DNA of 64,000 nt from Citreicella sp. C3M06 (GTDB lineage Bacteria; Pseudomonadota; Alphaproteobacteria; Rhodobacterales; Rhodobacteraceae), in assembly GCF_018860705.1 (NCBI RefSeq), contig NZ_JAHKQA010000073.1, forward strand, positions 62,001 to 126,000, in the 5' to 3' direction. Positions 3,679-48,179 of the stretch are shown here, piece by piece (positions within the stretch are counted from its first letter, which is position 1; each line of letters opens with the position of its first letter). The translations under genes were made by a program, and so were the position numbers. A model generated the notes under the pieces. The model had not been told where the DNA came from. It ran no database searches and was given only the letters and a program-made list of their open reading frames with translations.

Positions 3679-5199
<1,521 letters not shown>

Positions 5200-5447: not shown

Positions 5448-7529
5448 ATGCGCCTGCTTCTTGCCCTTCTGCTTGGCCTTGCCGCCCTGTCCGCCCGCGC
5501 CGATCCGATGGATCGCGCCGCGATGGAACGCTTTGTCTATGCCCCCTACGGGCTGGGCGAACCCGTCAATGACAAGGGCGTGTGGGAGCTGCTCAACTCC
5601 GGCGGAGGCCTTGCGGGCTATGCGTTTGAAACCGCGCTGATGGCCCCGCTGCCGGGCTTTTCCGGCGCGCCGATCAACGTCTTCGTCATGCTTGATCTCG
5701 AAGGGGCAATCCGCGACGTCAAGCTGATCGCCCATAACGAGCCGATCTTTGTCTCGGGGCTGGGCGAGGCGCCGTTTCGTGGCTTTCTCGAACAATACGC
5801 CGGGCGTTCGATTTCCGAAACCATGGTGGTTGGCAGTGCCTATGGCAGCGCCGCCGACGGCTCTGGCCTTGTCTATCTGGACGGGGTGACCAAGGCGACG
5901 GCCAGCGTGCGCATCGCGCATGAAAGCATCATGGCCGCCGCCCGCGAGGTGGCGCGCGAAAAGCTGGCGGGGGTGTCTTCGGGCCCGCCCGCCCGGCCCG
6001 ACCCTGATTACGACGAGCCGCTGGACTGGGACGCGCTGGTGGACCAAGGCATCGCCACCCATCACCTCACCAGCAACGCTGCGGTCGACGCGCTGTTCGC
6101 CGGCACGATCTGGGCCGATGACGACCCGGCGGCGGGCGAGGCCCCCGATGCGCCCTATCTTGACCTCTGGGTGATCGACATCGGCCCGCCCAGCATCGCG
6201 CGCGCGGTGCTCTCGCCCGATACGCTGGGCGAATTGCAGCGGTTCCTTGATATCTCGCCCGACGAGGAGCCCCTGCTGCTGATCGAAAGCGGGCGGCACG
6301 GGCTGGTGTCGGAGGATTTCGTGCGCAACACCGCCCCCGACCGGCTGGCCGCCGAACAGGACGGGCTGCCGATCGCGCTGCGCGACGCCGATCTGCTGGT
6401 CGAACTGGCGGCCGGGCTGCCGGACGCCCTGCAGGATGGCACCGCGATGATCCTGCGCACCGACCGGCGGCTGGGCTTTGACCCATCGCGCGAATGGACG
6501 CTGAAGGTCGAGGCGGTGCGCGCCCATGGCATGTTCCAGCCCGCAATCGGACGGCAGGAAATCCTTGTCTCTGCGCAGACGCCCGAACGGTTCTTTCTCA
6601 AGCCGCAGGTGGTGCAGACCCTGCCGCCGTGGCGCGAGGCGATCCGAGGCCGGCAGACCGATCTGCTGCTGCTGTGCGGCTTCCTTGTCGTGCTGCTGAT
6701 TGCCGTCGGCCCGCTGCAAAAGCATATCGCGCGGCGCCCGGCGCTGACGCCGCTGCGGCTGGGGCTGCTGACGGTGATGACCGGCTTCGTCGGGTTCTGG
6801 GGTCAGGGGCAATTGTCGATCGTGACGCCTTTGGGCGTGCTGCGCACGGCGCTTGAGGGCGGCAGCTTTGCCTTCCTGCTCTATGATCCGTTCTCGTTGC
6901 TGGTGTGGATCGCGGCGGGAGCCGGGTTCGTGCTGTGGGGGCGCGGGTTCTTTTGCGGCTGGCTCTGCCCGTTCGGCGCGTTGCAGGAATTCGCGGCGCA
7001 TCTCGGGCGGCGGCTGCGCCTGCCGCAGATCGAGCCAACGCCGCGCTGGGATCGCCGGTTGAAAGGGCTCAAATACGTGGTGCTGGCGGGCATGGTGGCG
7101 ACGGTGTTCCTTGCGCCCGGCAAGATCGACACCGTGGCCGAGATCGAGCCGTTCAAGACCGCGATCACCACCTATTTCCAGCGCGCATGGCCCTATGTGC
7201 TCTGGGCGGCGGGGCTGCTGGCGCTGTCGATGGTGCTGTTCAAGGGGTTTTGCCGCTACCTCTGCCCGCTGGGCGCGCTCATGGCCATCGGCGGGCTGCT
7301 GCGCAGGCGCGACTGGATCGCGCGGCGCAAAGGGTGCGGCGCGCCCTGCCAATTGTGCCGCGTGCGCTGCCGCTACGGGGCGATCGAGAAGTCCGGCAAG
7401 ATCGCCTATTCCGAATGCTTCCAGTGCCTTGACTGCGTTCAGATCTACGCCGACCCCAAACAATGCGTGCCCCTCGTGCTCACCGCCCGCAAGGGCCGGC
7501 CCGTTGCGCCGCTGGAGCCTGCCGAATGA
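5448..7529 (+). CDS. NosR/NirI-family membrane protein with FMN-binding and polyferredoxin domains
   Basis: A 693-residue electron-transfer membrane protein. Residues 1-18 form a Sec signal peptide (MRLLLALLLG...). About 60-175 is a periplasmic FMN-binding domain with the probable flavinylation site D-G-V-T-K-A-T-A-S (Thr151); the usual pattern is S/T-G-A-S/T-x-S/T, so the glycine is a lysine here. Transmembrane helices follow from about 404. Two half-motifs, CGWLCPFGALQE (503-514) and CRYLCPLGALM (602-612), are typical of NosR. A C-terminal ferredoxin has cysteines at 630, 634, 637, 641 and 657, 660, 663, 673. NosR proteins feed electrons to nitrous oxide reductase, but no nosZ, nosD, nosF, nosY or nosL is near. 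The neighbours instead belong to PQQ-dependent alcohol oxidation. There is no clear ribosome site, but the signal peptide fixes the start. The stop overlaps the next gene (ATGA). Confidence 0.85.
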   Translation: MRLLLALLLGLAALSARADPMDRAAMERFVYAPYGLGEPVNDKGVWELLNSGGGLAGYAFETALMAPLPGFSGAPINVFVMLDLEGAIRDVKLIAHNEPIFVSGLGEAPFRGFLEQYAGRSISETMVVGSAYGSAADGSGLVYLDGVTKATASVRIAHESIMAAAREVAREKLAGVSSGPPARPDPDYDEPLDWDALVDQGIATHHLTSNAAVDALFAGTIWADDDPAAGEAPDAPYLDLWVIDIGPPSIARAVLSPDTLGELQRFLDISPDEEPLLLIESGRHGLVSEDFVRNTAPDRLAAEQDGLPIALRDADLLVELAAGLPDALQDGTAMILRTDRRLGFDPSREWTLKVEAVRAHGMFQPAIGRQEILVSAQTPERFFLKPQVVQTLPPWREAIRGRQTDLLLLCGFLVVLLIAVGPLQKHIARRPALTPLRLGLLTVMTGFVGFWGQGQLSIVTPLGVLRTALEGGSFAFLLYDPFSLLVWIAAGAGFVLWGRGFFCGWLCPFGALQEFAAHLGRRLRLPQIEPTPRWDRRLKGLKYVVLAGMVATVFLAPGKIDTVAEIEPFKTAITTYFQRAWPYVLWAAGLLALSMVLFKGFCRYLCPLGALMAIGGLLRRRDWIARRKGCGAPCQLCRVRCRYGAIEKSGKIAYSECFQCLDCVQIYADPKQCVPLVLTARKGRPVAPLEPAE

Positions 7530-8395
7530 TGCTGTCCCGTCGCCGCTTCCTGAGCATTTCCGCCGCCGCGCTGAGCATGGGGGCAAGCGCTGCGCCCGCC
7601 CGCTGGAGCGGCCTCGCGCTGGGGGCCGAGGCGCAGATCACCCTGCACGGCCCCGGCGCCACCGAGGCCCTGCCCCGCGCCATCGCCCGCCTGCGCGAGA
7701 TCGAGGCGGCGTTCAGCCTGTATGACCCCGACTCCGAAGTGTCGCGGCTCAACCGCGCGGGCAGACTGGTGCCCTCGCAGGATTTCGCCGCGCTGATGGC
7801 GCTGGCGGATCGGGTGCATCGGGCGACCCAAGGGCAGTTCGACCCCACGGTTCAGCCGCTCTGGCAGGCGCTGGCGCGGGGCCAAGATACCGGCGACGCG
7901 CGCCAGTTGATCGGCTGGGAAAAGGTCCAGCGCGCGCCACAGGTGGTGCTGGGCAAGGGTCAGGCGCTGACCTTCAACGGCATCGCGCAGGGCTATGCCA
8001 CCGACGCGGTGGCCGATCTGCTGGAAACCCGGGGGTTCGGGCGCGCATTGGTCAATATCGGGGAATTCCGGGCGCTTGGCGGGCCGTGGCGGCTGGGTCT
8101 GGCGGACCCCGGTCAGGGTCTGCTGGGCTCGCGCACGCTGACCGGCGGCGCGGTGGCCAGTTCCAGCCCGTCGGCGCTGATGCTGGGGGCTCAGGCGCAT
8201 ATTCTCAGCCCGCAGGGCGGCGCGGCCCTCTGGTCGACGGTCTCGGTGGAATGCCCCAGCGCTGCGCTGGCCGATGCGCTGTCGACCGGGTTTTGCCTGA
8301 TGGACGAAGCGGCGATCCGCGCTGCGATCCGCCACATTCCGGCCCGGGTCACGCTGGTGGATGCGGGCGGCAACCTGCGCCGCCTGCCCGCCTGA
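7526..8395 (+). CDS. nosX: FAD:protein FMN transferase, ApbE/NosX family
   Basis: A 289-residue periplasmic flavinyltransferase that attaches FMN to a threonine of its partner, here presumably the NosR-like protein encoded directly upstream. The N-terminus has a twin-arginine signal, SRRRFLS, followed by a hydrophobic stretch, as in NosX proteins. Family motifs seen are FDPTVQPLW (normally DPTV.PL), the FAD/Mg-binding segment KGQALTFNGIAQGYATD, and LVNIGEFRALGG (usually NIGG). The ATG at 7526 overlaps the NosR-like stop codon and a second ATG follows at once, so translation is coupled. The gene ends three bases before the convergent binding-protein gene. I use the symbol nosX by family, but whether it serves nitrous oxide reduction is in doubt. 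Confidence 0.88.
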   Translation: MMLSRRRFLSISAAALSMGASAAPARWSGLALGAEAQITLHGPGATEALPRAIARLREIEAAFSLYDPDSEVSRLNRAGRLVPSQDFAALMALADRVHRATQGQFDPTVQPLWQALARGQDTGDARQLIGWEKVQRAPQVVLGKGQALTFNGIAQGYATDAVADLLETRGFGRALVNIGEFRALGGPWRLGLADPGQGLLGSRTLTGGAVASSSPSALMLGAQAHILSPQGGAALWSTVSVECPSAALADALSTGFCLMDEAAIRAAIRHIPARVTLVDAGGNLRRLPA

Positions 8396-8398
8396 CCC

Positions 8399-9289
8399 CT
8401 AGCGTTCCGGCGCCAGATGCGTCAGCCCGTATCGGGCAAAGATCGCCGCGATGCTGCCGTCGTCCAGCCCGGCGCGGATGGCATCGTCGACCGCATAGCC
8501 CAGCGCCCGGTAGCGCGTGTGAACCGCCACCCCCACCGTCCAGTGGCTGACGGCAAAGCCCGCCAGTGGCGGCTGGTGGATCGCGGCGCCCGCGCCCAGC
8601 CCGTATTCCAGCTGCGCCAGCGGGCCCATTGCGGCCATGGTCTCGCCCGCGCTCAGCGCCTGCATCGCCGCACCATAGGACGGATAGCGCCGCACCCCCT
8701 GCGCCAGTTGCCCGCCCGCAAAGGAGGTGAGGTAGAAATCGGCGATGGAATCGTTTTCGACCGCAACCGTGTCAAAGCGAAAATAGGCCGGAACCGGGGG
8801 GTCTTCGGGGTAGGCGTCCTTGCGATAGGCGATGGCCACCCGCTCGGCGGCGTATTGCCCGGTGAACACCACCTGATCGACGCGGCAGGCGTATTCGCTG
8901 TCATAGGGCACATGCATCATCAGGTTTGACACCGCCCCGCCCACCACCGGCCCCTGCCAGATGGTGTTGCGCAGATCGCCGTCGAGATTTTCGGCGGCGG
9001 GCACCAGATGGAACCGCGCCTCGACCCCCAGCCCCTTGGCGATCAGCCGACCGATGTCGATATCGACCCCGGCAGGCTTGCCGCCCTGCTGAAAGGACCA
9101 AGGCGCAAAGTCTTCGTAAGCGGCGATGTCGATGTAGCCACGCTCGATGATCTCGTCGAGATCCTTGCCCACGATATCGCGGCTGGCGTTCTGCGGCTTG
9201 GCCTGCGGAACCCAGTCTTCACAACGCGCGAAAGCCGGGCCTGCAACGGCAAGCCCGGCCAGCGCGGCAAGCAACAGGCGGCGTTTCAT
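8399..9289 (-). CDS. Quinoprotein dehydrogenase-associated periplasmic solute-binding protein (MxaJ/XoxJ-like)
   Basis: A 296-residue secreted protein of the type-3 solute-binding fold. A signal peptide (KRRLLLAALAGLAVAGPAFA) is followed by a Cys near the mature N-terminus (RCEDW) and the typical opening lobe (DIAAYEDFAPWSF, GVDIDIGRLIAKGLG). Proteins of this kind are encoded beside PQQ alcohol dehydrogenases (MxaJ, XoxJ and the putative ABC-type PQQ-associated subgroup) and are thought to help enzyme maturation or activity. The ATG at 9289 overlaps the stop of the upstream cytochrome gene (TGATG); the codon before it is a TTG, which I do not use. It forms a two-gene minus-strand operon with the PedF-like cytochrome. 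Exact substrate or role is unknown. Confidence 0.8.
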   Translation of the reverse strand: MKRRLLLAALAGLAVAGPAFARCEDWVPQAKPQNASRDIVGKDLDEIIERGYIDIAAYEDFAPWSFQQGGKPAGVDIDIGRLIAKGLGVEARFHLVPAAENLDGDLRNTIWQGPVVGGAVSNLMMHVPYDSEYACRVDQVVFTGQYAAERVAIAYRKDAYPEDPPVPAYFRFDTVAVENDSIADFYLTSFAGGQLAQGVRRYPSYGAAMQALSAGETMAAMGPLAQLEYGLGAGAAIHQPPLAGFAVSHWTVGVAVHTRYRALGYAVDDAIRAGLDDGSIAAIFARYGLTHLAPER

Positions 9290-9963
9290 CAATGCGCCGC
9301 CGACAGCCCGATGGTCAGCGTTTCGGCCGCATGGGTCAGATCATCGGGATACGCCTGAAGCTGGCCCGCCGCGCGAAAGGCGATGCTGTCGGCGACAGGC
9401 GCGCCCGACAGGGTCTCGATCTCGCCGGCGATCTCGGTCAACCGCGCCACGGTGGCGTCGACGTCCACATCGCCCGAGGCAAGGTGATCACGGATCGCCT
9501 TCAGCTCGTCCTGCCGCTCGTCGATCATGGCGTCGTCGGGGCGGGTTTCGACATAGGTGCGGATCGCCCAGGCGGCTTTCTGCCCCAGCAACTCGCCAAA
9601 GGCGGGCATCTTGGTGATGCCATTTTGCGTATAGCCTTCGCGGAACCGCTCCATGAACCACTCATCGCCATACTCCTCTGCCTCGAGAAAACGCAGATCG
9701 GGGGCCAGCCCGCCGGAGATCACCTCGAGCCCGTGGCAACGCGCACAGTTCTGGTTGTAGCCCGACGCACCGATGCTCACCGCCGCCTGCCACACCTCTT
9801 CACCGGCATCGCGGTAGGGGTTTTCGGTCAGCCAGTCTTCGCCGATATCGGGCAGCGCATCGGTGTTGACCGGCTGCGGGGCGACATCGCCATGGGCCAG
9901 CGCAAGGCTTGCGCTGAACAAAGCAGCAGCGCTGGCAAGCGCGGCACGGGTCATCGTTGACAT
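9289..9963 (-). CDS. pedF: Cytochrome c-550, PedF type
   Basis: A 224-residue periplasmic monoheme cytochrome c that accepts electrons from PQQ-dependent ethanol dehydrogenases. It has a signal peptide ending about ALAHG, the sequence ENPYRDAG, the heme site CARCH within YNQNCARCHGLEVISGG, and a distal ITKMPAFGE methionine segment, all typical of PedF/ExaB-type c-550. After the heme domain there is a helical C-terminal extension of about 90 residues. The ATG at 9963 follows GGAGGAGG with good spacing; an in-frame ATG three codons later is possible. It is transcribed with the binding protein that follows it. The alcohol dehydrogenase partner is not in this window. Confidence 0.88.
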   Translation of the reverse strand: MSTMTRAALASAAALFSASLALAHGDVAPQPVNTDALPDIGEDWLTENPYRDAGEEVWQAAVSIGASGYNQNCARCHGLEVISGGLAPDLRFLEAEEYGDEWFMERFREGYTQNGITKMPAFGELLGQKAAWAIRTYVETRPDDAMIDERQDELKAIRDHLASGDVDVDATVARLTEIAGEIETLSGAPVADSIAFRAAGQLQAYPDDLTHAAETLTIGLSAAH

Positions 9964-10121: not shown

Positions 10122-11285
10122 ATGCGCATCTTGGGTCTTGCCGCCCTGTGTTCGCTGGCGTTAAGCGCGGCTGCCGCGTCGGAAACCACGCTGCGGATCG
10201 GCTATCTTGGCGTCGATCGCATCGCGCCGCCGGTGCTGTCGAATCTCGATCCCGACCCGGCGGATCTTGGCCTTGCGGGCGCGCGGCTGGGGCTGAGCGA
10301 CAACGCCACCACCGGGCGCTTCATGGGGCAGACATGGCAGATGGAGGAAACCCGCGTCCCACCGGGCGGCGATGCGCTGGCCGCGGCACGGGCCGCGCTG
10401 GCGTCAACAAAGCTGCTGGTGATCGACGCCCCCGCCGGGACCCTGTTGCAGATCGCCGATCTTCCCGAGGCGCAGGGCGCGCTGTTGTTCAACGCCACCG
10501 CCCCCGACACGCGGCTGCGCAGCATGGATTGCCGCGCCAACCTGCTGCACAGCGCGCCGTCAAACGCCATGCGCGCCGATGCGCTGGCGCAGTTCCTCGT
10601 GTCGCGACGCTGGAGCGATGTTGCACTGATCTCTGGCCCGCTCCCCGAGGACATCGCCTTTGCCGATGCGCTGAAAGCCTCGGCGCAGAAATTCCAGCTG
10701 GATCTGGTGGGCGAAAAGCCGTGGCGCTTTGACGCCGACATGCGCCGCAGCGCCTCGTCCGAAGTGCCGCTGTTCACGCAGGAACTGGGCGATCACGATG
10801 TGCTGCTGATCGCTGACGAGACGCATGATTTCGGGCGCTACATCGCCTATAACACATGGGATCCGCGCCCCGTCGCCGGATCCGAAGAGCTGGTGCCCGA
10901 AGCCTGGGCGCCGGTGATGGAACAATGGGGCGCGGCGCAGCTGCAATCGCGTTTCGAGGACAGCGCCCAGCGCGACATGCGCAGCGCCGATTATGGCGCT
11001 TGGGCCGCCCTGCGCACGCTGGGCGAGGCGGTGACCCGCACCGGATCGGACGATCTGACCACGCTGCGCGCCTATATCCTGTCGGACGCGTTCGAACTGG
11101 CCGGCTTCAAGGGCCGCCCGCTGAGCTATCGCGACTGGAACGGCCAGCTGCGCCAACCGATCCCGCTGGTCACCGCACGCGCCGTAGTCGCCTCTGCCCC
11201 GCTCGAAGGCTTCCTGCATCAGGGCAACGAGCTCGACACGCTGGGGCTCGACGCCCCGGATTCCGCCTGCACCGCGTTTCAATGA
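10122..11285 (+). CDS. PQQ-dependent alcohol dehydrogenase-associated ABC substrate-binding protein
   Basis: A 387-residue periplasmic protein resembling branched-chain amino acid binding proteins (Peripla_BP_6 fold) but of the special subgroup encoded with PQQ-dependent alcohol dehydrogenases. Features are a signal peptide (MRILGLAALCSLALSAAAA), the opening LRIGYLGVDRI, the mid-protein SRRWSDVALISGPL and the C-terminal FKGRPLSYRDWNGQLRQP. The start at 10122 has AAGGAGGAC upstream. Its stop overlaps the ATG of the beta-propeller gene. The matching ATPase and permease genes, present in many such loci, are not seen within the window. The ligand is not established. Confidence 0.85.
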   Translation: MRILGLAALCSLALSAAAASETTLRIGYLGVDRIAPPVLSNLDPDPADLGLAGARLGLSDNATTGRFMGQTWQMEETRVPPGGDALAAARAALASTKLLVIDAPAGTLLQIADLPEAQGALLFNATAPDTRLRSMDCRANLLHSAPSNAMRADALAQFLVSRRWSDVALISGPLPEDIAFADALKASAQKFQLDLVGEKPWRFDADMRRSASSEVPLFTQELGDHDVLLIADETHDFGRYIAYNTWDPRPVAGSEELVPEAWAPVMEQWGAAQLQSRFEDSAQRDMRSADYGAWAALRTLGEAVTRTGSDDLTTLRAYILSDAFELAGFKGRPLSYRDWNGQLRQPIPLVTARAVVASAPLEGFLHQGNELDTLGLDAPDSACTAFQ

Positions 11286-12256
11286 GGCATCCCATGTTTC
11301 GCACCACCGCCCTTGCCTTGCTGCTGGCCACCCCCGCCCTTGCGGATGAAATCTGGGTGACCAATGAAAAGGACAACACCATCAGCGTGATCGACACCGC
11401 CACGCTGGAGGTTACACGCACCATTGCCACCGGCGAGCGCCCGCGCGGCATCACCTTTTCCGCCGATCATTCCGTGGTCTATATCTGCGCCTCCGACAGC
11501 GACGCGGTGCAGGTGATGGACCCGGTGTCGGGCGAGATCCTGCACGATCTGCCCTCGGGCGAAGACCCCGAACAATTCGTGCTGCACCCCGACAACCGGC
11601 GGCTGTACATCGCCAACGAGGATGATGCGATCACCACCGTGGTCGATACACAGACCCGCCGCGTCATCGCACAGATCGACGTTGGCATCGAACCCGAAGG
11701 CATGGCGGTCAGCCCCGATGGCAAGACGGTGATCACCACCTCGGAAACCACCAACATGGCGCATTGGATCGACACCGGCACCGAGACGATCTTTGCCAAC
11801 ACGCTGGTCGATTCGCGCCCCCGTCACGCAGAATTCGTCAAAGACGGCGCCGAGCTTTGGGTGTCTGCCGAGATCGGCGGCACGGTGACGGTGTTCGACA
11901 CATCCGACCAGTCGGAAAAGGCGAAACTGCATTTCGCCATCAAGGGCGTGCATGACGATCTGATCCAGCCCGTCGGGTTCGAGCTGACGCCGGACGGCAA
12001 GACCGCCTTTGTCGCGCTCGGGCCGTCGAACCACCTCGCGGTGGTGAACGCCGAGACCTACGAGGTCGAACAGTATATCCTTGTGGGGCGGCGCGTCTGG
12101 CACATGGCCTTTGATCGCGATCACGCGCAGCTGTTCACCACCAATGGCATCTCGGGCGATGTGACGGTGGTCGACGTGGCCACGCGCAAGGCGGTGAAAA
12201 CGATCAAGGTGGGCCGCTACCCATGGGGCGCGGCCTTCCGGCCAACCGAGGGCTGA
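11282..12256 (+). CDS. YVTN-type beta-propeller protein, PQQ-dependent catabolism-associated
   Basis: A 324-residue secreted beta-propeller with a signal peptide (FRTTALALLLATPALA). At least six repeats of the form N-x-D-N-T-I-S-V-I-D-T-x-T follow, for example DEIWVTNEKDNTISVIDT, VVYICASDSDAVQVMD, RLYIANEDDAITTVVDT and AQLFTTNGISGDVTVVD. This matches the beta-propeller family encoded with PQQ alcohol dehydrogenases. The ATG at 11282 overlaps the preceding stop (ATGA); ATG 11294 is an alternative that keeps the signal peptide. Its role is unproven. Neighbouring genes suggest it works in the periplasm with the alcohol-oxidising system. Confidence 0.85.
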   Translation: MRHPMFRTTALALLLATPALADEIWVTNEKDNTISVIDTATLEVTRTIATGERPRGITFSADHSVVYICASDSDAVQVMDPVSGEILHDLPSGEDPEQFVLHPDNRRLYIANEDDAITTVVDTQTRRVIAQIDVGIEPEGMAVSPDGKTVITTSETTNMAHWIDTGTETIFANTLVDSRPRHAEFVKDGAELWVSAEIGGTVTVFDTSDQSEKAKLHFAIKGVHDDLIQPVGFELTPDGKTAFVALGPSNHLAVVNAETYEVEQYILVGRRVWHMAFDRDHAQLFTTNGISGDVTVVDVATRKAVKTIKVGRYPWGAAFRPTEG

Positions 12257-12304: not shown

Positions 12305-12829
12305 ATGCGACACCTTTGGATGCTTGCCTTGCTGGCAAGCCCCGCTCTGGCGGATCAATACGGCACCACCAACCCCGAAGAGCTGACATGGCGGTCGGTG
12401 CGCGACAAGGCAGAGCGCGGGCAGACCGACATGATGACCTGCGCCGCGGGCTACATGATGACCAAATCCGGCGATCATGACACCGCCCGCGCGATCTTCG
12501 AAGCCTGCGCCGCGGCGGGCTATACCCGCGCGATGACATGGATGAGCTACATGGAGCAGAACGGCTTTGGCGGCGCGTTCAATCCCGAAGCGGCCGCCGA
12601 CTGGGACAGGCAGGCCGCCGAGGCGGGCGATCCGGTGGGCCAGTTCAACCACGGGCTCGACCTGATGCGAGGCTTCGGCACCCGGCAGGACGAAGCGCGC
12701 GGGCGGGACATGATCGACCGGGCGGCACACGCCGGGCTGGAGATCGCTCAGCGGCTTCAGGGCGCGGATTATAACCTCGACGAGGTGACGCCGGATGCCG
12801 ACAACTGGCGCTACGCCCCGCTGTTCTGA
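12305..12829 (+). CDS. Sel1-like repeat periplasmic protein
   Basis: A 174-residue protein with a short signal peptide (RHLWMLALLASPALA). It contains Sel1/TPR-like helical repeats around residues 55-150 (ARAIFEACAAAGYTRAM, AADWDRQAAEAGDPVGQFNHGL, GRDMIDRAAHAGLEIAQ), which make a protein-protein interaction surface. The start has AAAGGGAGGAAG upstream. It is the last gene of the plus-strand PQQ-associated operon, 48 bases after the propeller gene. A perfect hairpin follows at 12886. Two cysteines (CAAG, FEACAA) may form a disulfide. Function is inferred from neighbours only. Confidence 0.75.
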   Translation: MRHLWMLALLASPALADQYGTTNPEELTWRSVRDKAERGQTDMMTCAAGYMMTKSGDHDTARAIFEACAAAGYTRAMTWMSYMEQNGFGGAFNPEAAADWDRQAAEAGDPVGQFNHGLDLMRGFGTRQDEARGRDMIDRAAHAGLEIAQRLQGADYNLDEVTPDADNWRYAPLF

Positions 12830-39083: not shown

Positions 39084-39097
39084 TTGACCATGCGCAA
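39084..39097. promoter_or_regulatory. Second, degenerate FNR-like site between uspA and ccoN
   Basis: TTGAC-CATG-CGCAA matches the first half-site and part of the second of an FNR box. It lies 61 bases from the uspA start, so it may serve that gene. Confidence 0.4.
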
Positions 39098-39115
39098 TGC
39101 TTGGGCAGAAATGCC

Positions 39116-39129
39116 TTGATACAGATCAA
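39116..39129. promoter_or_regulatory. Perfect FNR box upstream of ccoNOQP
   Basis: TTGAT-ACAG-ATCAA matches the consensus in every position. It is 90 bases upstream of the ccoN start, the right place to activate the high-affinity oxidase operon when FnrL is active. Confidence 0.88.
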
Positions 39130-39219
39130 AGATACGTGACGGGGGAATGCCCATTAAGCGGTAAGCCTAAAACCGCTCGTGCGGCGCCGAATCGTGCGAG
39201 AGAGACGAAGGGACGAAAA

Positions 39220-40833
39220 ATGATCAATTACTTCAAGCTGATCGTGCTGGGGGTGATCGCGGTTTTCGCGCTGATCGCCTCCAACTACGCACGCGATCTG
39301 GCTTATCAGGTGCACGCCATCCTGATTTTTCTGGTGGCGGCGGGGATGTTCCTGTGGACCTTGCGCAGCACCGACGAACCGGTGCCAGCCGCGGTGCTGC
39401 AGACCTCTTACATGGATGACGTCATCCGCGCCGGTGTGATCGCCACCGCCTTCTGGGGCGTTGTCGGCTTTCTTGCCGGAACGTTCATCGCCAGCCAGCT
39501 TGCCTTTCCGGCGCTGAATTTCGACTGGGCCAACGGCTACCTGAACTTTGGACGGTTGCGCCCGCTGCACACCTCGGCGGTGATCTTCGCCTTTGGGGGC
39601 AACGCGCTGATCTGTACGTCCTTTTACGTTGTCCAGCGCACCAGCGCCGCGCGGCTCTGGGGCGGCAATCTCGCGTGGTTCGTGTTCTGGGGCTACAACC
39701 TGTTCATCGTACTGGCGGCCACCGGCTATATCCTCGGCGGCACCCAGTCCAAGGAATACGCCGAGCCGGAATGGTACATCGATCTGTGGCTGACCGTGGT
39801 CTGGCTGTGCTACCTTGCGGTCTTTGTCGGCACCATCGTCAAGCGCCGCGAGCCGCATATCTACGTGGCCAACTGGTTCTACCTGTCCTTCATCATCACC
39901 GTCGCCATGCTGCACGTGTTCAACAACCTGTCGATCCCGGTGTCGATCTGGGGCAGCAAATCGGTGCAGGTGTTCAGCGGCGTGCAGGATGCCATGACGC
40001 AATGGTGGTACGGCCACAACGCCGTGGGCTTCTTCCTGACCGCCGGTTTCCTTGGCATGATGTATTACTTCGTGCCCAAGCAGGCCGAGCGCCCGGTGTT
40101 CAGCTACAAGCTGTCGATCGTGCACTTCTGGGCGCTGATCTTCATCTACATCTGGGCCGGTCCGCACCATTTGCATTACACCGCCCTGCCCGACTGGGCC
40201 TCGACCCTTGGCATGGTGTTCTCGATCGTGCTGTGGATGCCGTCCTGGGGCGGGATGATCAACGGCCTGATGACGCTGAGCGGCGCATGGGACAAGCTGC
40301 GCACCGATCCGATCATGCGGATGCTGGTGATCTCGATCGGCTTTTACGGCATGTCGACCTTTGAGGGCCCGATGATGTCGATCCGCGCCGTCAACTCGCT
40401 GAGCCATTACACCGACTGGACCATCGGCCACGTGCATTCTGGCGCGCTTGGCTGGAACGGCATGATCACCTTTGGCGCGCTGTATTTCCTGACGCCGCGC
40501 CTGTGGAACCGCGAGCGGCTCTATAGCCTCAGCCTCGTCAGCTGGCACTTCTGGCTCGCCACCATCGGCATCGTTCTGTACGCCGCTTCGATGTGGGTGA
40601 CCGGCATCATGGAAGGCCTGATGTGGCGCGAAGTCGACGCCAACGGCTTCCTCGTCAACAGCTTTGCCGACACCGTGTCCGCCAAATTCCCGATGTATGT
40701 GGTGCGTTCCATTGGTGGCCTGCTCTACGTCGCTGGTGGGGTGATCATGTGCTACAACCTCTGGATGACCGTGAAAAAGGCACCGGCTGTCGAAGCCACC
40801 GCCGCCGCGGCTCATGCGAATCCGGCCGAATAA
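39220..40833 (+). CDS. ccoN: cbb3-type cytochrome c oxidase catalytic subunit I (CcoN)
   Basis: A 537-residue heme-copper oxidase core with about twelve helices. Metal ligands are visible in [15 protein letters not shown] (low-spin heme), [15 protein letters not shown] and [14 protein letters not shown] (copper B), and [19 protein letters not shown] (high-spin and low-spin hemes). It reduces oxygen to water at very low oxygen concentration. I chose ATG 39220 ([11 protein letters not shown]) since it begins the first helix. ccoO follows after 14 bases. A perfect FNR box lies upstream. Confidence 0.96.
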
Positions 40834-40847
40834 GGAGAGCCAGGATC

Positions 40848-41576
40848 ATGGGAATTCTCGAAAAACACGGCGTGCTTGAAAAGAACGTCACGCTGCTGGC
40901 GATCTTTGCCTTCCTTGTGGTGACCATTGGCGGGCTGGTGCAGATCGTGCCGCTGTTCTACCTCGAAAACACCATCGAGGATGTCGAAGGCATGCGCCCC
41001 TACACGCCGCTGGAACTGGCTGGGCGCGACATCTACATCCGCGAGGGCTGCTACGTCTGCCACAGCCAGATGATCCGCCCGATGCGCGATGAGGTCGAAC
41101 GCTACGGCCATTACAGCCTCGCGGCGGAATCGCAGTATGACCATCCGTTCCAATGGGGGTCCAAGCGTACCGGGCCGGATCTGGCCCGCGTCGGGGGGCG
41201 CTATTCCGACAACTGGCATGTCGATCACCTGCGTGACCCGCAATCGGTGGTGCCGGAATCGGTGATGCCGAAATACGGTTTCCTCGAGGCGACGCTGATC
41301 GACGGCGAGCACATTCAGGATCTGATGAGCACCCATCGCTTTGTCGGCGTGCCCTACACCGACGAGATGATCGAGGCCGGGTATCAGGATTTCCTTGCCC
41401 AATCCAACCCCGACCGTGACTACGACGGCCTGCTCGAGCGCTACGGCGAGGCAACCAACGTGCGCAACTTCGACAGCCAGCCGGGGATCTCGGAGCTCGA
41501 CGCGCTGATCGCCTATCTTCAGATGCTCGGCACGCTGGTCGATTTCTCGACCTTCGAGCCGGACGCAAGCCGCTAG
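40848..41576 (+). CDS. ccoO: cbb3 oxidase subunit II, monoheme cytochrome c (CcoO)
   Basis: A 242-residue membrane-anchored cytochrome. One N-terminal helix (about 14-35) and a heme site CYVCH at Cys68-Cys71-His72 in [15 protein letters not shown] are the CcoO hallmark. Electrons pass from CcoP through it to CcoN. The start at 40848 ([13 protein letters not shown]) is standard. It is part of the ccoNOQP operon. Confidence 0.95.
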
Positions 41577-41584
41577 GGGGCAAT

Positions 41585-41788
41585 ATGGGACACGAAACCT
41601 ATAACGCCCTGCGCCATTTTGCGGACAGCTGGGGCCTGCTGGCGATGTTCGTCTTTTTTGTCGGCGTGATCGTCTGGGCCCTGCGCCCCGGCAGCCGCAA
41701 GGCGCATCAGGACGCGGCCACGGTGGTGTTCCGCAACGAGGACAAACCGGCGCCGCCGGCGGACGAGACCGAGGGACACGACAAATGA
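41585..41788 (+). CDS. ccoQ: cbb3 oxidase small subunit CcoQ
   Basis: A 67-residue single-helix membrane protein (helix about 16-33, [18 protein letters not shown]) that stabilises the cbb3 complex. A charged C-terminal tail ends in EGHDK. It overlaps ccoP by four bases (ATGA). Confidence 0.92.
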
Positions 41789-42672
41789 GTGACCACAAGA
41801 AAAACGACCAGGACCACGACTACGAAACCACCGGCCACTCGTGGGACGGCATCGAGGAATACAACAAGCCGCTTCCCAAGTGGTGGCTGATGATCTTCTA
41901 CGCCAGCATCGTCTGGGGCATCGGGTACAGCATCATGTACCCGGCATGGCCCGGCGTGAAATCGGCCACCGCGGGCATCCTTGGCTGGTCGACGCGCGGC
42001 GACGTGGAGCAGGCCATCGTCGATCACGCCAATGAACTGGCACCGATCAACGCCCAGCTGGCCTCTGTCGATCTCGAGGATATCGCGGCAGACCCCGAGC
42101 TGAACACCTATGCCCAGAACGCCGGCGCGGCGGTGTTCCGCACATGGTGCGCGCAGTGCCATGGCTCGGGCGCGGCGGGGAACGTCGGCTACCCCAACCT
42201 GCTCGATGATGATTGGCTCTGGGGCGGCACGATGGAAGACATCCACTACACCGTCACCCACGGCATCCGCAACGAACAGGACCTCGATGCGCGCTATTCA
42301 GAAATGCCCGCCTTTGGCCGCGACGATCTGCTGCCGAAAGAAGAAATCGCGCAGGTGGCAAATTTCGTCATGACGCTGTCAGGCGAAACCCCGCCCGCGC
42401 CCGATCTGGTGGCCGCTGGCGCCGAGGTGTTCGACATCAACTGCGCGTCCTGCCACGGCGAAGACGGCGCGGGCGACCGCTTTCAGGGCGCGCCCAACCT
42501 GACCGATGCGATCTGGCTCTATGGCGGCGATTACGACGCCATCCACGAAACCGTGGTGAACGCCCGCTTCGGCGTCATGCCCCCGATGGGCGGCGCCCAG
42601 TTGTCCGAAGCCGAAATCCGCGCCGTGACAACCTATGTCCACGGACTGGGGGGCGGCGAAGCGGCCGAGTAA
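41785..42672 (+). CDS. ccoP: cbb3 oxidase subunit III, diheme cytochrome c (CcoP)
   Basis: A 295-residue membrane-anchored diheme cytochrome and the electron entry point of the oxidase. One helix lies at about 33-53 ([18 protein letters not shown]). Heme sites are CAQCH (122-126) and CASCH (220-224). Distal methionines lie in SEMPAFG and FGVMPPMGG. It is last in ccoNOQP, followed by two stem-loops, one with a U tract. Confidence 0.95.
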
Positions 42673-42687
42673 CCCCCCAAAAAGACA

Positions 42688-42711
42688 CCTTCAGGCCTTC
42701 GGGTCTGAAGG
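42688..42711 (+). terminator. First stem-loop after ccoP
   Basis: CCTTCAG (42688-42694) pairs with CTGAAGG (42705-42711) around GCCTTCGGGT, 15 bases after ccoP. It probably protects the 3' end. Confidence 0.5.
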
Positions 42712-42712
42712 C

Positions 42713-42764
42713 AAACGCCGGCGCCCCCTCCTGTTCGCGCGTTTTCAGGGGCACCGGCGTTTTT
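42713..42764 (+). terminator. Rho-independent terminator of ccoNOQP
   Basis: AAACGCCGG (42713-42721) plus GCCCC pairs with GGGGC plus CCGGCGTTT, with a C-A mismatch between, and the second arm runs into five T residues (42760-42764). This is the clearest plus-strand terminator in the cco region. Confidence 0.8.
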
Positions 42765-42899
42765 CGTGCCCGGCTCGCACACCGGTCACATGAGGTGTTT
42801 TCTGAGTATGGCGGTGGTCGCGCATCAATCAAGGCAGATTGCGCAAAACTCTGGCCCTTGGCACATCTTTTTACACAAATCGAGCCCTACCACCGGCGG

Positions 42900-43034
42900 T
42901 TACCGCAGCCTCTCATCCTTGCGAAAACGCTCCAGCCGGGCTTCGACCTCGGCGCGCGGCGCCGGGCGCCAACGATCTGCCTGCGGCTCGGTGCGGCTGG
43001 CGGTCATGAAAGTTCTGGCGAAAATTCCAAGCAT
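42900..43034 (-). CDS. 44-residue small basic protein divergent from the LysR gene
   Basis: The minus strand has an ATG at 43034 preceded by AGGAG (in ACAGGAGAAAAGACG) and a TAA at 42900. The 44-residue product begins MLGIFARTFMTASRT and ends in a strongly charged helix, VEARLERFRKDERLR. There is no membrane segment beyond a weakly hydrophobic start. I do not recognise a family; a resemblance in size and charge to small DUF1127-type proteins is only an impression. The divergent LysR regulator starts 98 bases away and may control it. Confidence 0.6.
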   Translation of the reverse strand: MLGIFARTFMTASRTEPQADRWRPAPRAEVEARLERFRKDERLR

Positions 43035-43132
43035 CGTCTTTTCTCCTGTCTGGCACATCCATGCCATTCATATTGACTGAACCGCCGATTCAGGCCAGTC
43101 AGGAAGCCTGACATGATGTAAGCTGAGCTGAC

Positions 43133-44017
43133 ATGGACTGGACCGCGATCCCGCCGCTTTCCGCGCTGCGCGCCTTTGCCGCCTATGCCGAGCACCGCTC
43201 GGTCGAACAGGCCGGCAATGCGCTCAATGTCAGTCACGCCGCGATCAGCCAGCAGATCCGCAATCTCGAAACTCATCTTGGCTTTGCGCTGCTCGACCGG
43301 CATGGCCGCCGCATGACGCTGACCCCTGACGGAGAGCGCCTAGCCGAAGCACTGCTCGACGGGTTTGGCGGCATCGCCCGCACGCTGGCCGAGATGACCG
43401 GGCGCGATGCCGGGCGGGCGCTGGAAATCTCGGCCACGCCGGGGTTTGCCGCAACATGGCTGATGCCGCGCCTGCCGGGATTTCGGGAACGCCACCCCTC
43501 GCTCAGCCTTGCCATCGACCCATCGTCGCAGCTGCGCAGCCTCCAGCCCGGCGGGCTGGACGTGGCGATCCGCTATGGTGATGGCAACTGGCCGGGGCTG
43601 GAGGCCGAACGCCTGTTCCTGTCGCCCATCGTGGTGGTGGCCGCCCCGGCGCTGGTGCCGCGCCCGATCACCGATCCGGCCGAGCTGCGCGCCTATCCAT
43701 GGCTTCAGGAACTAGGCACCTCCGAGGCGACCGACTGGCTGGCAGAATACGGCGTGACCCCGGACACCGCCCATGGCATGACCGGCCTGCCCGGCAACCT
43801 GATGATCGAGGCCGCCCGGCAAGGTCAGGGCATCGCCATCACCGCACGGCTCTTCGTCGAACAGGATCTCGTGGCCGGGCGTCTGCGCCTGCTGTTTCAG
43901 GACGCGCGGCAAAAGGGCTATTGGATGGTCACCCGCCCCGGCATCCCGCGCCCGCCCCTGCGACACTTCGTATCGTGGCTGCGCCGGGAGGCGGCAAAAG
44001 CTTCATCGCCGATATAG
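43133..44017 (+). CDS. LysR family transcriptional regulator (GcvA-like)
   Basis: A 294-residue regulator. The helix-turn-helix at about 5-65 (PPLSALRAFAAYAEHRSVEQAG, VSHAAISQQIRNLE) is of the GcvA subgroup. A periplasmic-binding-type ligand domain follows from about 92. It is located between ccoNOQP and ccoGHIS, divergent from the small 44-residue gene. It is unlikely to be part of oxidase biogenesis. LysR proteins usually control the divergent neighbour. Confidence 0.88.
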   Translation: MDWTAIPPLSALRAFAAYAEHRSVEQAGNALNVSHAAISQQIRNLETHLGFALLDRHGRRMTLTPDGERLAEALLDGFGGIARTLAEMTGRDAGRALEISATPGFAATWLMPRLPGFRERHPSLSLAIDPSSQLRSLQPGGLDVAIRYGDGNWPGLEAERLFLSPIVVVAAPALVPRPITDPAELRAYPWLQELGTSEATDWLAEYGVTPDTAHGMTGLPGNLMIEAARQGQGIAITARLFVEQDLVAGRLRLLFQDARQKGYWMVTRPGIPRPPLRHFVSWLRREAAKASSPI

Positions 44018-44100
44018 TAATTGATGCATGTCAAAGCCTGCCGCGCGCGTCCGGTCCAGAACCGCCCGCAAACAGGCAACCGACGCGAAGGCGAATCCCC

Positions 44101-45534
44101 GTGGCCGATACCCCTCCTTCTGCCCCCTCCCTTTATGAATCGCGCGAGCCGATCTTTCCGCGCCGGGTCAGCGGCCCGTTCCGCAACCTGAAATGGGCGC
44201 TGCTGGCGGTGATGCTGGGGATCTATTACATCACCCCGTGGATCCGCTGGGACCGCGGCCCGGCGCTGCCCGATCAGGCGGTGCTGCTGGACATGGCGAA
44301 CCGGCGCTTTTTCTTCTTCTGGATCGAAATCTGGCCGCATGAATTCTATTTCGTCGCCGGGCTGCTGGTGATGGCCGGGCTGGGGCTGTTCCTGTTCACC
44401 TCGGCGCTCGGGCGGGTGTGGTGCGGCTATGCCTGCCCGCAGACGGTCTGGACCGACCTGTTCATCCTCGTGGAACGCTGGATCGAGGGCGACCGCAACG
44501 CCCGCCTGCGCCTGCATCGGCAAAAGCAATGGGATCTGCGCAAGGCCCGGCTGCGGGTGACCAAATGGGTGGCGTGGTTTCTGATCGCCATGGCGACAGG
44601 CGGGGCCTGGGTGTTCTATTTCACCGATGCGCCGACGCTGCTGCGGGATCTGCTGACGCTGCAGGCCCATCCTGTTGCGTGGACGACCATCTTGGTGCTG
44701 ACCGCCACCACCTTTGCCTTTGGCGGCTTTGCCCGCGAACAGATCTGCATCTACGCCTGCCCATGGCCGCGCATTCAGGCCGCGATGATGGACGAAGACA
44801 CCCTGACCGTCGGCTATCGTGACTGGCGCGGCGAGCCGCGCGGCAAGCATCGCAAGGCGGAGGGCGCCGAGACCCTTGGCGATTGCATCGACTGCCGCGC
44901 CTGCGTCAACGTTTGCCCGACCGGAATCGACATTCGCGACGGGCAGCAGATGGCCTGCATCACCTGCGCGCTGTGCATCGATGCCTGCGACGACGTGATG
45001 GCAAAGATCGGCAAGCCGCGCGGGCTGATCGATTATCTCGCGCTGTCGGATGAAACCCGCGAGCGCGCCGGCAACGCGCCGCGCCCGGTGTGGACCCATG
45101 TGTTTCGCCCGCGCGTCCTTTTGTACACTGCGCTCTGGACGCTGGTGGGCGTCGGGCTTGTGGTCGCGCTTGTGCTGCGCCCACCGGTCGAGATGACCGT
45201 GGCCCCGGTGCGCAACCCGACCTTCGTGATGCTGTCCGACGGATCGATCCGCAACACCTACGATGTGCGCCTGCGCAACAAGCACGGCGAGGATCGCCTG
45301 TTTGCGCTGTCGATCGATGATGCTCCGGCGCTGACAATCACGCTTGAGGGCGAGGATGACACCACCGTGGACGTGCGCGCCAACGAGACGTATCTTCAAC
45401 GCGTCTATGTGACCGCCGCCCGCGGCACGCCCGAGGCGCAGAACGAGCGTACAGAATTCGTGTTGCGGCTCGAAGACACCACCACAGGTGACATGGCGAC
45501 CAAGGAAACGGTCTTCAACGGACGGGACAACTGA
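44101..45534 (+). CDS. ccoG: cbb3 oxidase assembly polyferredoxin CcoG (RdxA/FixG)
   Basis: A 477-residue membrane protein that reduces copper for delivery to the cbb3 oxidase. Five helices lie within the first 260 residues, with CGYACPQTVW and ICIYACPWPRIQ. Two 4Fe-4S clusters follow in DCIDCRACVNVCPTGIDIR and ACITCALCIDACDDV, and a C-terminal Ig-like periplasmic domain begins about 370. The only start in good position is a GTG at 44101 after GAAGG. The stop shares a base with the ccoH ATG (TGATG). Confidence 0.92.
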   Translation: MADTPPSAPSLYESREPIFPRRVSGPFRNLKWALLAVMLGIYYITPWIRWDRGPALPDQAVLLDMANRRFFFFWIEIWPHEFYFVAGLLVMAGLGLFLFTSALGRVWCGYACPQTVWTDLFILVERWIEGDRNARLRLHRQKQWDLRKARLRVTKWVAWFLIAMATGGAWVFYFTDAPTLLRDLLTLQAHPVAWTTILVLTATTFAFGGFAREQICIYACPWPRIQAAMMDEDTLTVGYRDWRGEPRGKHRKAEGAETLGDCIDCRACVNVCPTGIDIRDGQQMACITCALCIDACDDVMAKIGKPRGLIDYLALSDETRERAGNAPRPVWTHVFRPRVLLYTALWTLVGVGLVVALVLRPPVEMTVAPVRNPTFVMLSDGSIRNTYDVRLRNKHGEDRLFALSIDDAPALTITLEGEDDTTVDVRANETYLQRVYVTAARGTPEAQNERTEFVLRLEDTTTGDMATKETVFNGRDN

Positions 45535-45992
45535 TGGCACGCGACTTCAGACTGAACGGCTGGCATGTTCTGGCGATCTTCGTCGGGGCCTTTGGCGTGA
45601 TCATCGGGGTGAACCTTGCGCTGGCGTGGAACGCCGTCGCCACCTTCCCCGGCCTCGAGGTCGCCAACTCCTACGTTGCCAGCCAGACCTTCGACGCCCG
45701 CCGCTCCGCACAAGAGGCGCTTGGCTGGACGGTCGAGGCAACTGCGGCAGATGGGCAGATCGTGCTCGCCATCACCGATGCCAAGGGCTACCCGGTGCAG
45801 CCAAAAACGCTGAACGCCAAGGTCGGGCGCACCACCAGCGCCAAGGATGACCGCACACCCGAGTTCACCTTTGACGGGCGCGCCTATAGCGCCAGCGACC
45901 CGCTGGCCCCCGGTTACTGGAACGTCTGGCTGAGCGCCGAGGCCTTCGACGGCACCCAGTTCCAGCAACGCCTGTCGCTGCGCGTCCGGTAA
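45534..45992 (+). CDS. ccoH: cbb3 oxidase assembly protein CcoH (FixH)
   Basis: A 152-residue protein with one N-terminal helix (about 9-31, GWHVLAIFVGAFGVIIGVN) and a periplasmic beta domain. It is needed for stable cbb3 assembly. FixH family features include NSYVASQTFDARR and the C-terminal GYWNVWLSAEAFDGTQF. Its start overlaps ccoG. ccoI follows after six bases. Confidence 0.9.
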   Translation: MARDFRLNGWHVLAIFVGAFGVIIGVNLALAWNAVATFPGLEVANSYVASQTFDARRSAQEALGWTVEATAADGQIVLAITDAKGYPVQPKTLNAKVGRTTSAKDDRTPEFTFDGRAYSASDPLAPGYWNVWLSAEAFDGTQFQQRLSLRVR

Positions 45993-45998
45993 GCTGCC

Positions 45999-48179
45999 AT
46001 GACCACCGCCATGCGCCCGCCGGTCTCGGCCTGCCCTGCCTGCTCTGCCGCCCCTGCCGCCACCACGCTGGCCGAGGTTGCAACAAAGGCCCGCGTGGTG
46101 CTGTCACTGCCCACCATCCATTGCGCCAACTGCATGCGCGGCGTCGAAGAGGCGCTGACGGCGCATCCCGGTGTGCGCTCTGCCCGCGTCAACCTGACCC
46201 TGAAACGCGTTGCCATCGACGCCGACGCCGGGCTGAGCGCCGAAGAGCTGATCCCGGTGGTCACCGCCGCGGGCTATGAGGCGCATGAACTGGATGCCAG
46301 TGCCCTGTTCGCCACGCAGACCGACAAGGCCGGGCGCGATTTGCTGATGCGGTTGGCGGTGGCGGGCTTTGCCATGATGAATGTCATGCTGCTGTCGGTC
46401 TCGGTCTGGTCCGGTGCGGACGGGCCGACGCGCGACATGTTCCACTGGATTTCGGCGGCGATCACGCTGCCGACCATCGCCTTTTCCGGGCAGGTATTCT
46501 TTCGCAGCGCCTGGGGCGCGCTGAAGGCCGGGCGGCTGAACATGGACGTGCCGATCTCGCTGGCGATCCTGCTGGCGGTGGTGACATCGCTCTGGGAAAC
46601 CTCGCTGTCGGGCGAACACGCCTATTTCGACGCGGCGATCGCGCTGACCTTCTTTCTGCTGACCGGGCGTTACCTTGACCATCGCACCCGCTCGATCGCC
46701 CGCTCTGCCGCCGAAGAGCTGGCCGCGCTCGAGGTGCCGCGCGCGTGGCGGCTGACGGCGGATGGCGAAGAACAGGTTTCCGTCGCCGATCTGGCGGTGG
46801 GCGATCTGCTGCGGGTGCGCCCCGGCGGACGGATGCCGGTGGACGGAGAGATCACCGAAGGCCAGTCCGAACTGGACCGATCCCTGCTGACCGGCGAGAC
46901 GCTGCCGGTGTTTGCCGCGCCCGGCACGCAGGTCAGCGCCGGCGAGGTCAATCTGACCGGCCCGCTGGTGGTGTGTGCTACAGCGGTCGGGCGGGAAACC
47001 TCGCTGCACCGCATGGCGGATCTGGTCGCGGTGGCGGAATCGGGGCGGGCCAATTACACGCCGCTCGCCGACAAGGCGGCAAAGCTCTATGCGCCGGGGG
47101 TGCATATCCTGTCCGCGCTGGCCTTTGTCGGCTGGTTGCTCTGGGCGCAGGACTTCCGCGTGGCGCTGAACATCGCGGCGGCGGTTCTCATCATCACCTG
47201 CCCCTGCGCGCTGGGTCTCGCGGTGCCTGCGGTGACCACGGCCGCGTCGGGGCGGCTGTTCAGGCAGGGCCTGCTGATCAAGGACGGCACCGCGCTGGAA
47301 CGGCTGGCCGAGGTCGATACGGTGATCTTTGACAAGACCGGCACGCTGACTACGGGAACACCCGAGGCGACCAATCTGGGCGATTTCTCTGCGCGCGATC
47401 TGCAGATCGCGCTGGCGCTGGCCGAAGGGTCCTCGCACCCCTTGTCGCTGTCGTTGAATGCCGCGCTGCGAGCGCAGGGCGTCACGCCCGCAGCACTGAG
47501 TGATCTGTGCGAAGTGCCGGGCCATGGCACGCAAGGCATGTGGCAGGGGCAGAGGGTACGGCTGGGCCGCTCGTCCTGGGTTGGTGGGGGGCAATCGGCG
47601 CTGACTTCGGCATGGCTGCGGGTTGGCGACGGGCCGGCGCAGCTGTTCACCTTTGCCGACACGCTGCGCGACGGGGCCGAAACGGCAATCCGCGAGCTGA
47701 TCGCCAGCGGCAAGCAGGTGATCCTGTTGTCGGGCGACACGGCGGCGGCGGTCGAAGCGATGGCCCTGCGCCTTGCCATCCCGCAATGGAGCGGCGAGGC
47801 CCTGCCGCAGGACAAGGCCGCACGGGTCAAGGCCCTGTCGGACGCGGGCGCGAAGGTGCTGATGGTCGGGGATGGGCTGAACGATACGGCGGCGCTGGCC
47901 TCGGCGCATGTGTCGATCTCGCCCGCCTCGGCGCTGGATGCGGCGCGGGTCGCATCGGACATCGTGCTGCTTGGCACCACGCTGGCCCCGATCCCGGAGG
48001 CGCTGGCCACCGCAACCCGCGCCACCCGGCGCATCCGACAGAATTTCGCCATCGCCACATGGTACAATCTCATCGCCGTGCCTTTGGCGATCGCGGGATT
48101 GTGCTCGCCCCTGATCGCGGCCTTGGCGATGTCGGCCTCGTCGATTACCGTGTCGCTGAACGCGCTGAGACTGAAGTAA
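45999..48179 (+). CDS. ccoI: Copper-transporting P1B-type ATPase CcoI (FixI)
   Basis: A 726-residue copper pump that supplies copper for the cbb3 oxidase. The heavy-metal domain has CANC at 42-45. The ion channel has ITCPCALGLAVP, the phosphorylated Asp lies in DKTGTLTTG, and the hinge is MVGDGLNDTAALA. An additional CPAC motif at 12-15 precedes the HMA domain and could be an extra copper site. It is third in ccoGHIS. ccoS starts 17 bases after its stop. Confidence 0.93.
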   Translation: MTTAMRPPVSACPACSAAPAATTLAEVATKARVVLSLPTIHCANCMRGVEEALTAHPGVRSARVNLTLKRVAIDADAGLSAEELIPVVTAAGYEAHELDASALFATQTDKAGRDLLMRLAVAGFAMMNVMLLSVSVWSGADGPTRDMFHWISAAITLPTIAFSGQVFFRSAWGALKAGRLNMDVPISLAILLAVVTSLWETSLSGEHAYFDAAIALTFFLLTGRYLDHRTRSIARSAAEELAALEVPRAWRLTADGEEQVSVADLAVGDLLRVRPGGRMPVDGEITEGQSELDRSLLTGETLPVFAAPGTQVSAGEVNLTGPLVVCATAVGRETSLHRMADLVAVAESGRANYTPLADKAAKLYAPGVHILSALAFVGWLLWAQDFRVALNIAAAVLIITCPCALGLAVPAVTTAASGRLFRQGLLIKDGTALERLAEVDTVIFDKTGTLTTGTPEATNLGDFSARDLQIALALAEGSSHPLSLSLNAALRAQGVTPAALSDLCEVPGHGTQGMWQGQRVRLGRSSWVGGGQSALTSAWLRVGDGPAQLFTFADTLRDGAETAIRELIASGKQVILLSGDTAAAVEAMALRLAIPQWSGEALPQDKAARVKALSDAGAKVLMVGDGLNDTAALASAHVSISPASALDAARVASDIVLLGTTLAPIPEALATATRATRRIRQNFAIATWYNLIAVPLAIAGLCSPLIAALAMSASSITVSLNALRLK

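Follow-up and report, generated by a model that had tools for sequence, protein, structure and literature searches.

The window analysed here, a stretch of 64,000 nucleotides from Citreicella sp. C3M06 (positions 62001-126000 of contig C45 in genome G000, which is 96% complete and comes in 106 contigs), carries a complete gene for a NosR-like membrane flavoprotein (5448..7529, plus strand, 693 amino acids) that is coupled by an ATGA start/stop overlap to a gene for an ApbE-type FAD:protein FMN (flavin mononucleotide) transferase (7526..8395, plus strand, 289 amino acids). Coordinates and overlap had been read this way in a first-pass annotation of the DNA and both were verified. The NosR-like protein was assigned from profile matches, motifs, alignment and hydropathy, its FMN attachment being predicted, and the transferase from its PF02424 match (155.5 bits, 2.6e-45, cut-off 25.6) and its place in a tree. 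The flanks, too, are as annotated: an exaC/pedI-type acetaldehyde dehydrogenase gene (3679..5199, plus strand; NF050026, 937.4 bits, cut-off 900) on one side and, on the other, genes for a PedG/ExaJ-like periplasmic binding protein (8399..9289, minus strand; SBP_bac_3 Pfam match), the PedF/ExaB cytochrome c550 (9289..9963, minus strand; TIGR04494, 194.8 bits, cut-off 122), a PedA1-like substrate-binding protein of the PQQ (pyrroloquinoline quinone)-alcohol dehydrogenase system (10122..11285, plus strand; TIGR03863, 495.7 bits, cut-off 413.6) and a PedA2-like beta-propeller (11282..12256, plus strand; TIGR03866, 521.5 bits, cut-off 287.3). A small Sel1-repeat protein follows (12305..12829, plus strand; Pfam match below cut-off), a relative of which occurs in 26 of the 80 related loci described below.

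Genes of the TIGR03863 and TIGR03866 kind appear as pedA1 and pedA2 in PMC12997753 (Table 1), which supplied these names as well as, together with adjacency to pedF, that of PedG, and which describes PedA1A2BC as a lanthanide transporter of Pseudomonas. Our locus has pedF, pedG, pedA1, pedA2 and exaC in common with the Pseudomonas ped/exa cluster, with a PedH-like enzyme elsewhere in the genome; unlike here, that Table 1 lists no NosR-like gene or ApbE. An identity of the propeller as clade III NosZ could be rejected (NF052460, 67.9 bits against a cut-off of 700). Further away, some 31 kb downstream of the pair, window positions 39097-48179 by eye resemble a cbb3 cytochrome oxidase cluster.

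As to the kind of protein we are dealing with, the NosR equivalog model NF046105 matches residues 22-682 of the NosR-like protein at 444.7 bits, which is below the curated cut-off of 1000. Two CX3CP motifs (at 503 and 602) and, near the C terminus, two 4Fe-4S cysteine sets (starting at 630 and 657) are present, and hydropathy, on which the membrane part is based, indicates a hydrophobic N terminus and more hydrophobic stretches at about 405-618. The FMN_bind Pfam match from the genome scan is weak (21.9 bits, or 22.4 with frame neighbours; cut-off 22) and the FMN domain was not among the Pfam matches at an E of 0.001 when the protein itself was scanned; its assignment is due instead to the acceptor motif, DGVTKATAS with Thr151 as acceptor, and to the whole-length NosR match. 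Counting it, the NosR architecture (FMN domain, two CX3CP motifs, two 4Fe-4S cysteine sets) is complete. The protein also contains a Fer4_5 domain, and such a PF12801 membrane protein inside an ApbE/FMN-binding gene cluster is what defines a NapH-like flavinylated system.

In a NosR-family tree of 61 rows (59 different), made by a quick method with SH-aLRT (Shimodaira-Hasegawa-like approximate likelihood ratio test) support and no bootstrap, 28 orthologue rows (26 different) formed one group (SH-aLRT 100). These and eight gammaproteobacterial proteins split off from 14 NosZ-adjacent and 11 other NosR-family rows (SH-aLRT 100), the exact placement being unsure for two gammaproteobacterial rows beside exaA that are long or oddly composed. 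The phylogeny proposed in the first-pass annotation thus puts our protein outside the clade of NosZ-adjacent NosR, and by both its score under the cut-off and its separate clade it is not a Nos protein. The lysine of its acceptor motif had been taken for an oddity of this one protein; it is not, as lysine is kept in 28 of 28 orthologues in the tree, in seven of the eight gammaproteobacterial members (serine in the eighth) and, in a larger set, in 107 of 107 distinct orthologues. Glycine is found in 14 of 14 NosZ-adjacent NosR proteins, and arginine (nine), histidine (one) or glycine (one) in the other 11 rows. Neither the acceptor Thr nor any of 12 cysteines varies among the 107 orthologues and 20 lower-identity proteins. 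Our system has the full domain order, the 12 cysteines, the acceptor Thr and an ApbE gene in common with NosR and NosX/ApbE of nitrous oxide respiration, yet differs from them in the lack of nosZ, an identity of about a third, the separate clade, Lys for Gly and an ApbE from another clade.

The latter point comes from an ApbE tree of 49 rows, which left out L200 (beside a His-motif protein; length filter) and to which L313, one of 20 Nos-side stretches, contributed no row. The 24 locus ApbE rows formed one group (support 99) apart from 19 ApbE rows near nosZ, so the locus ApbE does not group with the NosX-type transferases next to nosZ operons. Its sister group (98) consists instead of three ApbE genes that each neighbour an Arg-motif protein of the NosR family (L202, L203, L206), and two ApbE genes beside Gly-motif proteins (L204, L205) likewise fall outside it. 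We take the Arg-motif proteins with ApbE for NirI and NirX, no nirS search having been made. Our pair shares their architecture and this sister relation but carries Lys where they have Arg, belongs to a separate clade on the NosR side and has ped neighbours, none of which were found there.

Turning to the genome as a whole, the first-pass annotation had also remarked on the absence of other nos genes, and two models agree as far as NosZ is concerned (TIGR04246, best matches 23.8 and 22.2 bits against a cut-off of 625; TIGR04244, zero matches), nosD, F, Y and L not having been searched one by one. The genome scan found a single NosR-like gene, and the two stronger FMN_bind matches of this genome sit in what by eye are Rnf-operon-like clusters. 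Two PQQ-alcohol dehydrogenases score above cut-off, 36% identical to each other: one on contig C48, which we take to be of the XoxF type, and one of the ExaA type on contig C31. The ExaA-type enzyme reads WDYDG where 1flg has WDFSG, with an extra Asp two residues past the catalytic Asp. This extra Asp is a mark of lanthanide use in such dehydrogenases. The nearest solved structures are 6zcv and 6zcw, the latter being PedH according to PMC11996626. By the Asp test, then, the ExaA-type dehydrogenase of this genome is predicted to be a PedH/ExaF lanthanide-type enzyme, the role of the Asp being taken from the literature. Its gene (L017, G000:C31:37001-57000) lies away from the ped locus, between genes that by eye resemble those for choline/betaine transport and oxidation.

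Whether the pair goes with alcohol oxidation or with nitrous oxide respiration can be judged from its distribution among 149 genomes of the family (148 genera), where NosR-like proteins are split by an identity gap into those of 31 genomes at 59-66% (including our own at 100%) and the rest at about 31-40%; the high-identity group, referred to here as the NosR type, amounts to 32 gene rows (with one gene divided between two contigs), and of the lower rows 64 were entered and 16 weak or partial ones left out. An ExaA/PedH-type dehydrogenase, more than 70% identical to that of our genome, is present in 29 of the 31 genomes with the NosR type and in one of the 118 without (Fisher 2e-27), this sole exception being 73% complete. 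PedF follows the same pattern (29 of 31 against 2 of 118, one of the two, G002, having a calcium-type WDFSG dehydrogenase), as does TIGR03863 (28 of 31 against 16 of 118). In contrast, neither NosZ (10 of 31 against 32 of 118, p 0.65) nor XoxF (6 of 31 against 15 of 118, p 0.39) is linked to the NosR type, and nosZ lies within 20 kb of 0 of the 32 high-group rows but within 5 kb of 41 of the 64 lower ones. Among 57 dehydrogenases above the family cut-off, 30 were of the ExaA type and 21 of the XoxF type, all with the Asp, and six are unlike either and stay unclassed at less than 70% identity to both references. By these counts the pair follows the PedH/ExaF-type dehydrogenase and PedF and is independent of NosZ and XoxF, which bears out the proposal in the first-pass annotation that it belongs with alcohol oxidation. 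Two genomes may be mentioned individually: G088, from the same genus as our own, has an XoxF-type enzyme and TIGR03863 but neither an ExaA-type enzyme nor the NosR-like gene, and G020 has kept the NosR-like gene, yields no match for PedF or TIGR03863 and has a dehydrogenase fragment with three stops, perhaps a decaying system.

The linkage recurs in relatives, as seen in the best 80 of at least 550 confirmed related loci from a genome-contig scan, a sample biased to close kin in which neighbours were identified by tblastn. Near the NosR-like gene these have ApbE (77), pedA1, pedA2 and pedG (58 each), pedF (51), coxL (32), exaA (21), pqqB (18) and exaC (12), and NosZ and XoxF in 0 of 80 each. 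At least one ped/pqq marker was found in 68 of the 80, or in 50 of the 57 loci with flanks of at least 9 kb on both sides. Our own contig has no exaA in the cluster; in six Salipiger loci (two from one species), with gene order the same as in the window or rearranged, four do. The coxM/L/S genes that lie near the pair in 32 of the 80 loci (L049-L128) encode, in all 32 coxL proteins read, the sequence AYRGAGR, which we take for the form II motif. Since cox and exaC occur together in one locus only (L114), coxMLS and exaC possibly stand in for each other as the aldehyde-oxidising step of one pathway.

Beyond the family, 66 of 398 genomes of the phylum had a NosR-like match, of which 30 were read; the other 36, all of lower identity, were left unread, so the clade count that follows is a lower bound. 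Of the 30, 16 belong to the clade (eight orthologues, some by identity alone, and eight gammaproteobacterial ones by the tree) and 14 have the Gly motif. All 16 clade genomes have a PQQ-alcohol dehydrogenase above cut-off, against a base rate of 95 in 398 (hypergeometric 4e-11), and each has an ExaA-type dehydrogenase with the Asp, two gammaproteobacterial ones with exaA beside the NosR-like gene. The other six gammaproteobacterial members (L237-L242) are solitary, with no nosZ, exaA or ApbE relative in the stretches fetched and an ExaA-type enzyme elsewhere in their genomes. As far as tested, then, we did not meet with what would speak for an ordinary NosR/NosX pair, namely a nos operon elsewhere in the genome, a place in the true NosR clade and no conserved linkage to PQQ genes.

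Together, these sequence data make it probable, to our minds, that the NosR-like protein and its ApbE form a redox module dedicated to the PedH/ExaF-type (lanthanide-type) quinoprotein alcohol dehydrogenase system. In such a module ApbE would attach FMN to Thr151, and the periplasmic FMN domain would trade electrons with the dehydrogenase or one of its partners in the alcohol-oxidising chain. Having crossed the membrane part, these electrons may reach either the quinone pool or a cytosolic protein that works with the two 4Fe-4S clusters, giving the chain a second outlet in addition to PedF and the cytochrome oxidases. We consider it most likely that they run from alcohol to quinone, albeit on a finely balanced judgement. 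Several observations weigh against this view. Both quinoprotein dehydrogenases of our genome are encoded off the window's contig, exaA does not adjoin the gene in six of the eight gammaproteobacterial members, and 12 of the 80 related loci (including seven of the 57 long-flanked ones) are without any ped/pqq marker. The NosR type is also found without an intact dehydrogenase in G020 (the copy with stops) and G122 (76% complete). Conversely, among 40 dehydrogenase stretches fetched, which are not all matches, 12 genomes encode this dehydrogenase type but lack the NosR type, so alcohol oxidation is possible in its absence; in a thirteenth, G471, the NosR-like protein has 32% identity and is unplaced. 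Moreover, the genomes are related and our co-occurrence tests ignore kinship, so independence is overstated. Finally, a low potential is common for covalently bound FMN, and this casts doubt on electron transfer from alcohol to the flavin.

That low potential, expected of covalent FMN as a matter of general knowledge, at the same time favours the main rival, in which electrons run the other way. As in the proposals for NosR and NapH, quinol or a donor in the cytosol would then feed the periplasm, so that the dehydrogenase, PedG or some step of maturation stays active. NosR may supply NosZ with electrons and reportedly takes no part in NosZ copper assembly (PMC7660919), and the NapH and PceC models run outward (PMC5928378). 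The twelve genomes whose same-type enzymes come without the NosR type argue against such a reductive service. Nor do we know of any reductive step in alcohol oxidation. On balance we regard this reverse direction as a real but lesser possibility.

Another option is that a flavinylated NapH-like protein stands in for cytochrome c550 between alcohol oxidase and respiratory chain, as was proposed for an exaA cluster in Meheust et al. 2021 (PMC8238504). Here, the retention of PedF in 29 of the 31 family genomes with the NosR type, and of pedF in the very same locus in 51 of the 80 relatives, leaves cytochrome replacement unsupported and suggests that the NosR-like protein adds to the cytochrome, which makes this substitution improbable. 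We think it similarly improbable that the protein serves PQQ synthesis or lanthanide uptake instead of electron flow in the alcohol chain. While pqqB is near in 18 and pedA1 and pedA2 in 58 each of the 80 loci, 14 family genomes have a PQQ-needing XoxF-type enzyme together with TIGR03863 above cut-off yet no NosR type, their own PQQ synthesis not having been searched; on the strength of these genomes we reject a connection with XoxF, or with nothing but lanthanide uptake. As for a true NosR/NosX or NirI/NirX left over after loss of denitrification genes, the shared architecture and whole-length NosR match would fit, but the separate clade (SH-aLRT 100), the absence of any NosZ association, the invariant Lys and the occurrence in 31 of 149 genomes argue for rejecting such a remnant, to which we give hardly any credence.

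Returning to the dedicated redox module, the pairing of a flavinylated protein with an alcohol oxidase is itself not new but was published in 2021, there too as an inference (PMC8238504). For NapH-like flavinylated clusters, which it found together with an ethanol oxidase in 172 genomes, that paper infers that the link to exaA arose several times independently, and it proposes for the flavoprotein a role that a cytochrome c fills elsewhere. Our system and these NapH-like systems with ExaA share a PF12801 membrane protein with an FMN domain at its N-terminal end, the ApbE neighbour and the association with alcohol oxidase; ours differs in its PedH/ExaF branch, the PedF that is kept, the Lys motif and the single clade in our sample, where the paper infers several independent exaA associations. 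What is new, then, is the tie to a lanthanide-type (PedH/ExaF) enzyme, the retained cytochrome PedF and a lineage-specific Lys beside the flavin site, with the proviso that the supplementary lists of PMC8238504 may include the same loci. A literature search, confined to titles and abstracts among the matches listed and with subscription papers mostly outside it, returned none linking NosR/NapH-like flavoproteins to lanthanide-type dehydrogenases.

In this context the lysine deserves comment, as the published flavinylation motif is D-x-x-[S/T]-G-A-[S/T], and Gly-to-Ala exchange in fumarate reductase cut flavinylation to about half (PMC12052999). Given this glycine dependence and the ApbE clade of its own, an ApbE group fitted to basic-residue motifs is possible, although the ApbE tree is equally explained by shared ancestry. 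An acidic ApbE residue pairing with the motif Lys was sought and not found in a comparison where only two positions separate the groups (the NosX group holding 20 rows rather than 19, with the window row sorted into it by mistake), and 17 stretches yielded no ApbE gene close to any of the gammaproteobacterial Lys-motif genes. Put at its most specific, and tentatively, the proposal is of a NosR branch for lanthanide-type ethanol dehydrogenases that may form a flavin/iron-sulfur exit to the quinone pool parallel to cytochrome c550, flavinylated by an ApbE subgroup accepting a basic residue in place of the published Gly (D-x-x-[S/T]-[K/R]-A-T).

The general proposal of 2021 is thereby made sharply testable: a single type of protein is matched to a single class of partner enzyme, the cytochrome is retained, and some genera have the module while others do not. 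A Lys motif served by its own ApbE clade would broaden what counts as a flavinylation motif, a point of importance when flavinylated proteins are looked for by sequence, and a second electron exit, if true, would change the energy-yield accounting of lanthanide-dependent alcohol oxidation in marine Rhodobacterales.

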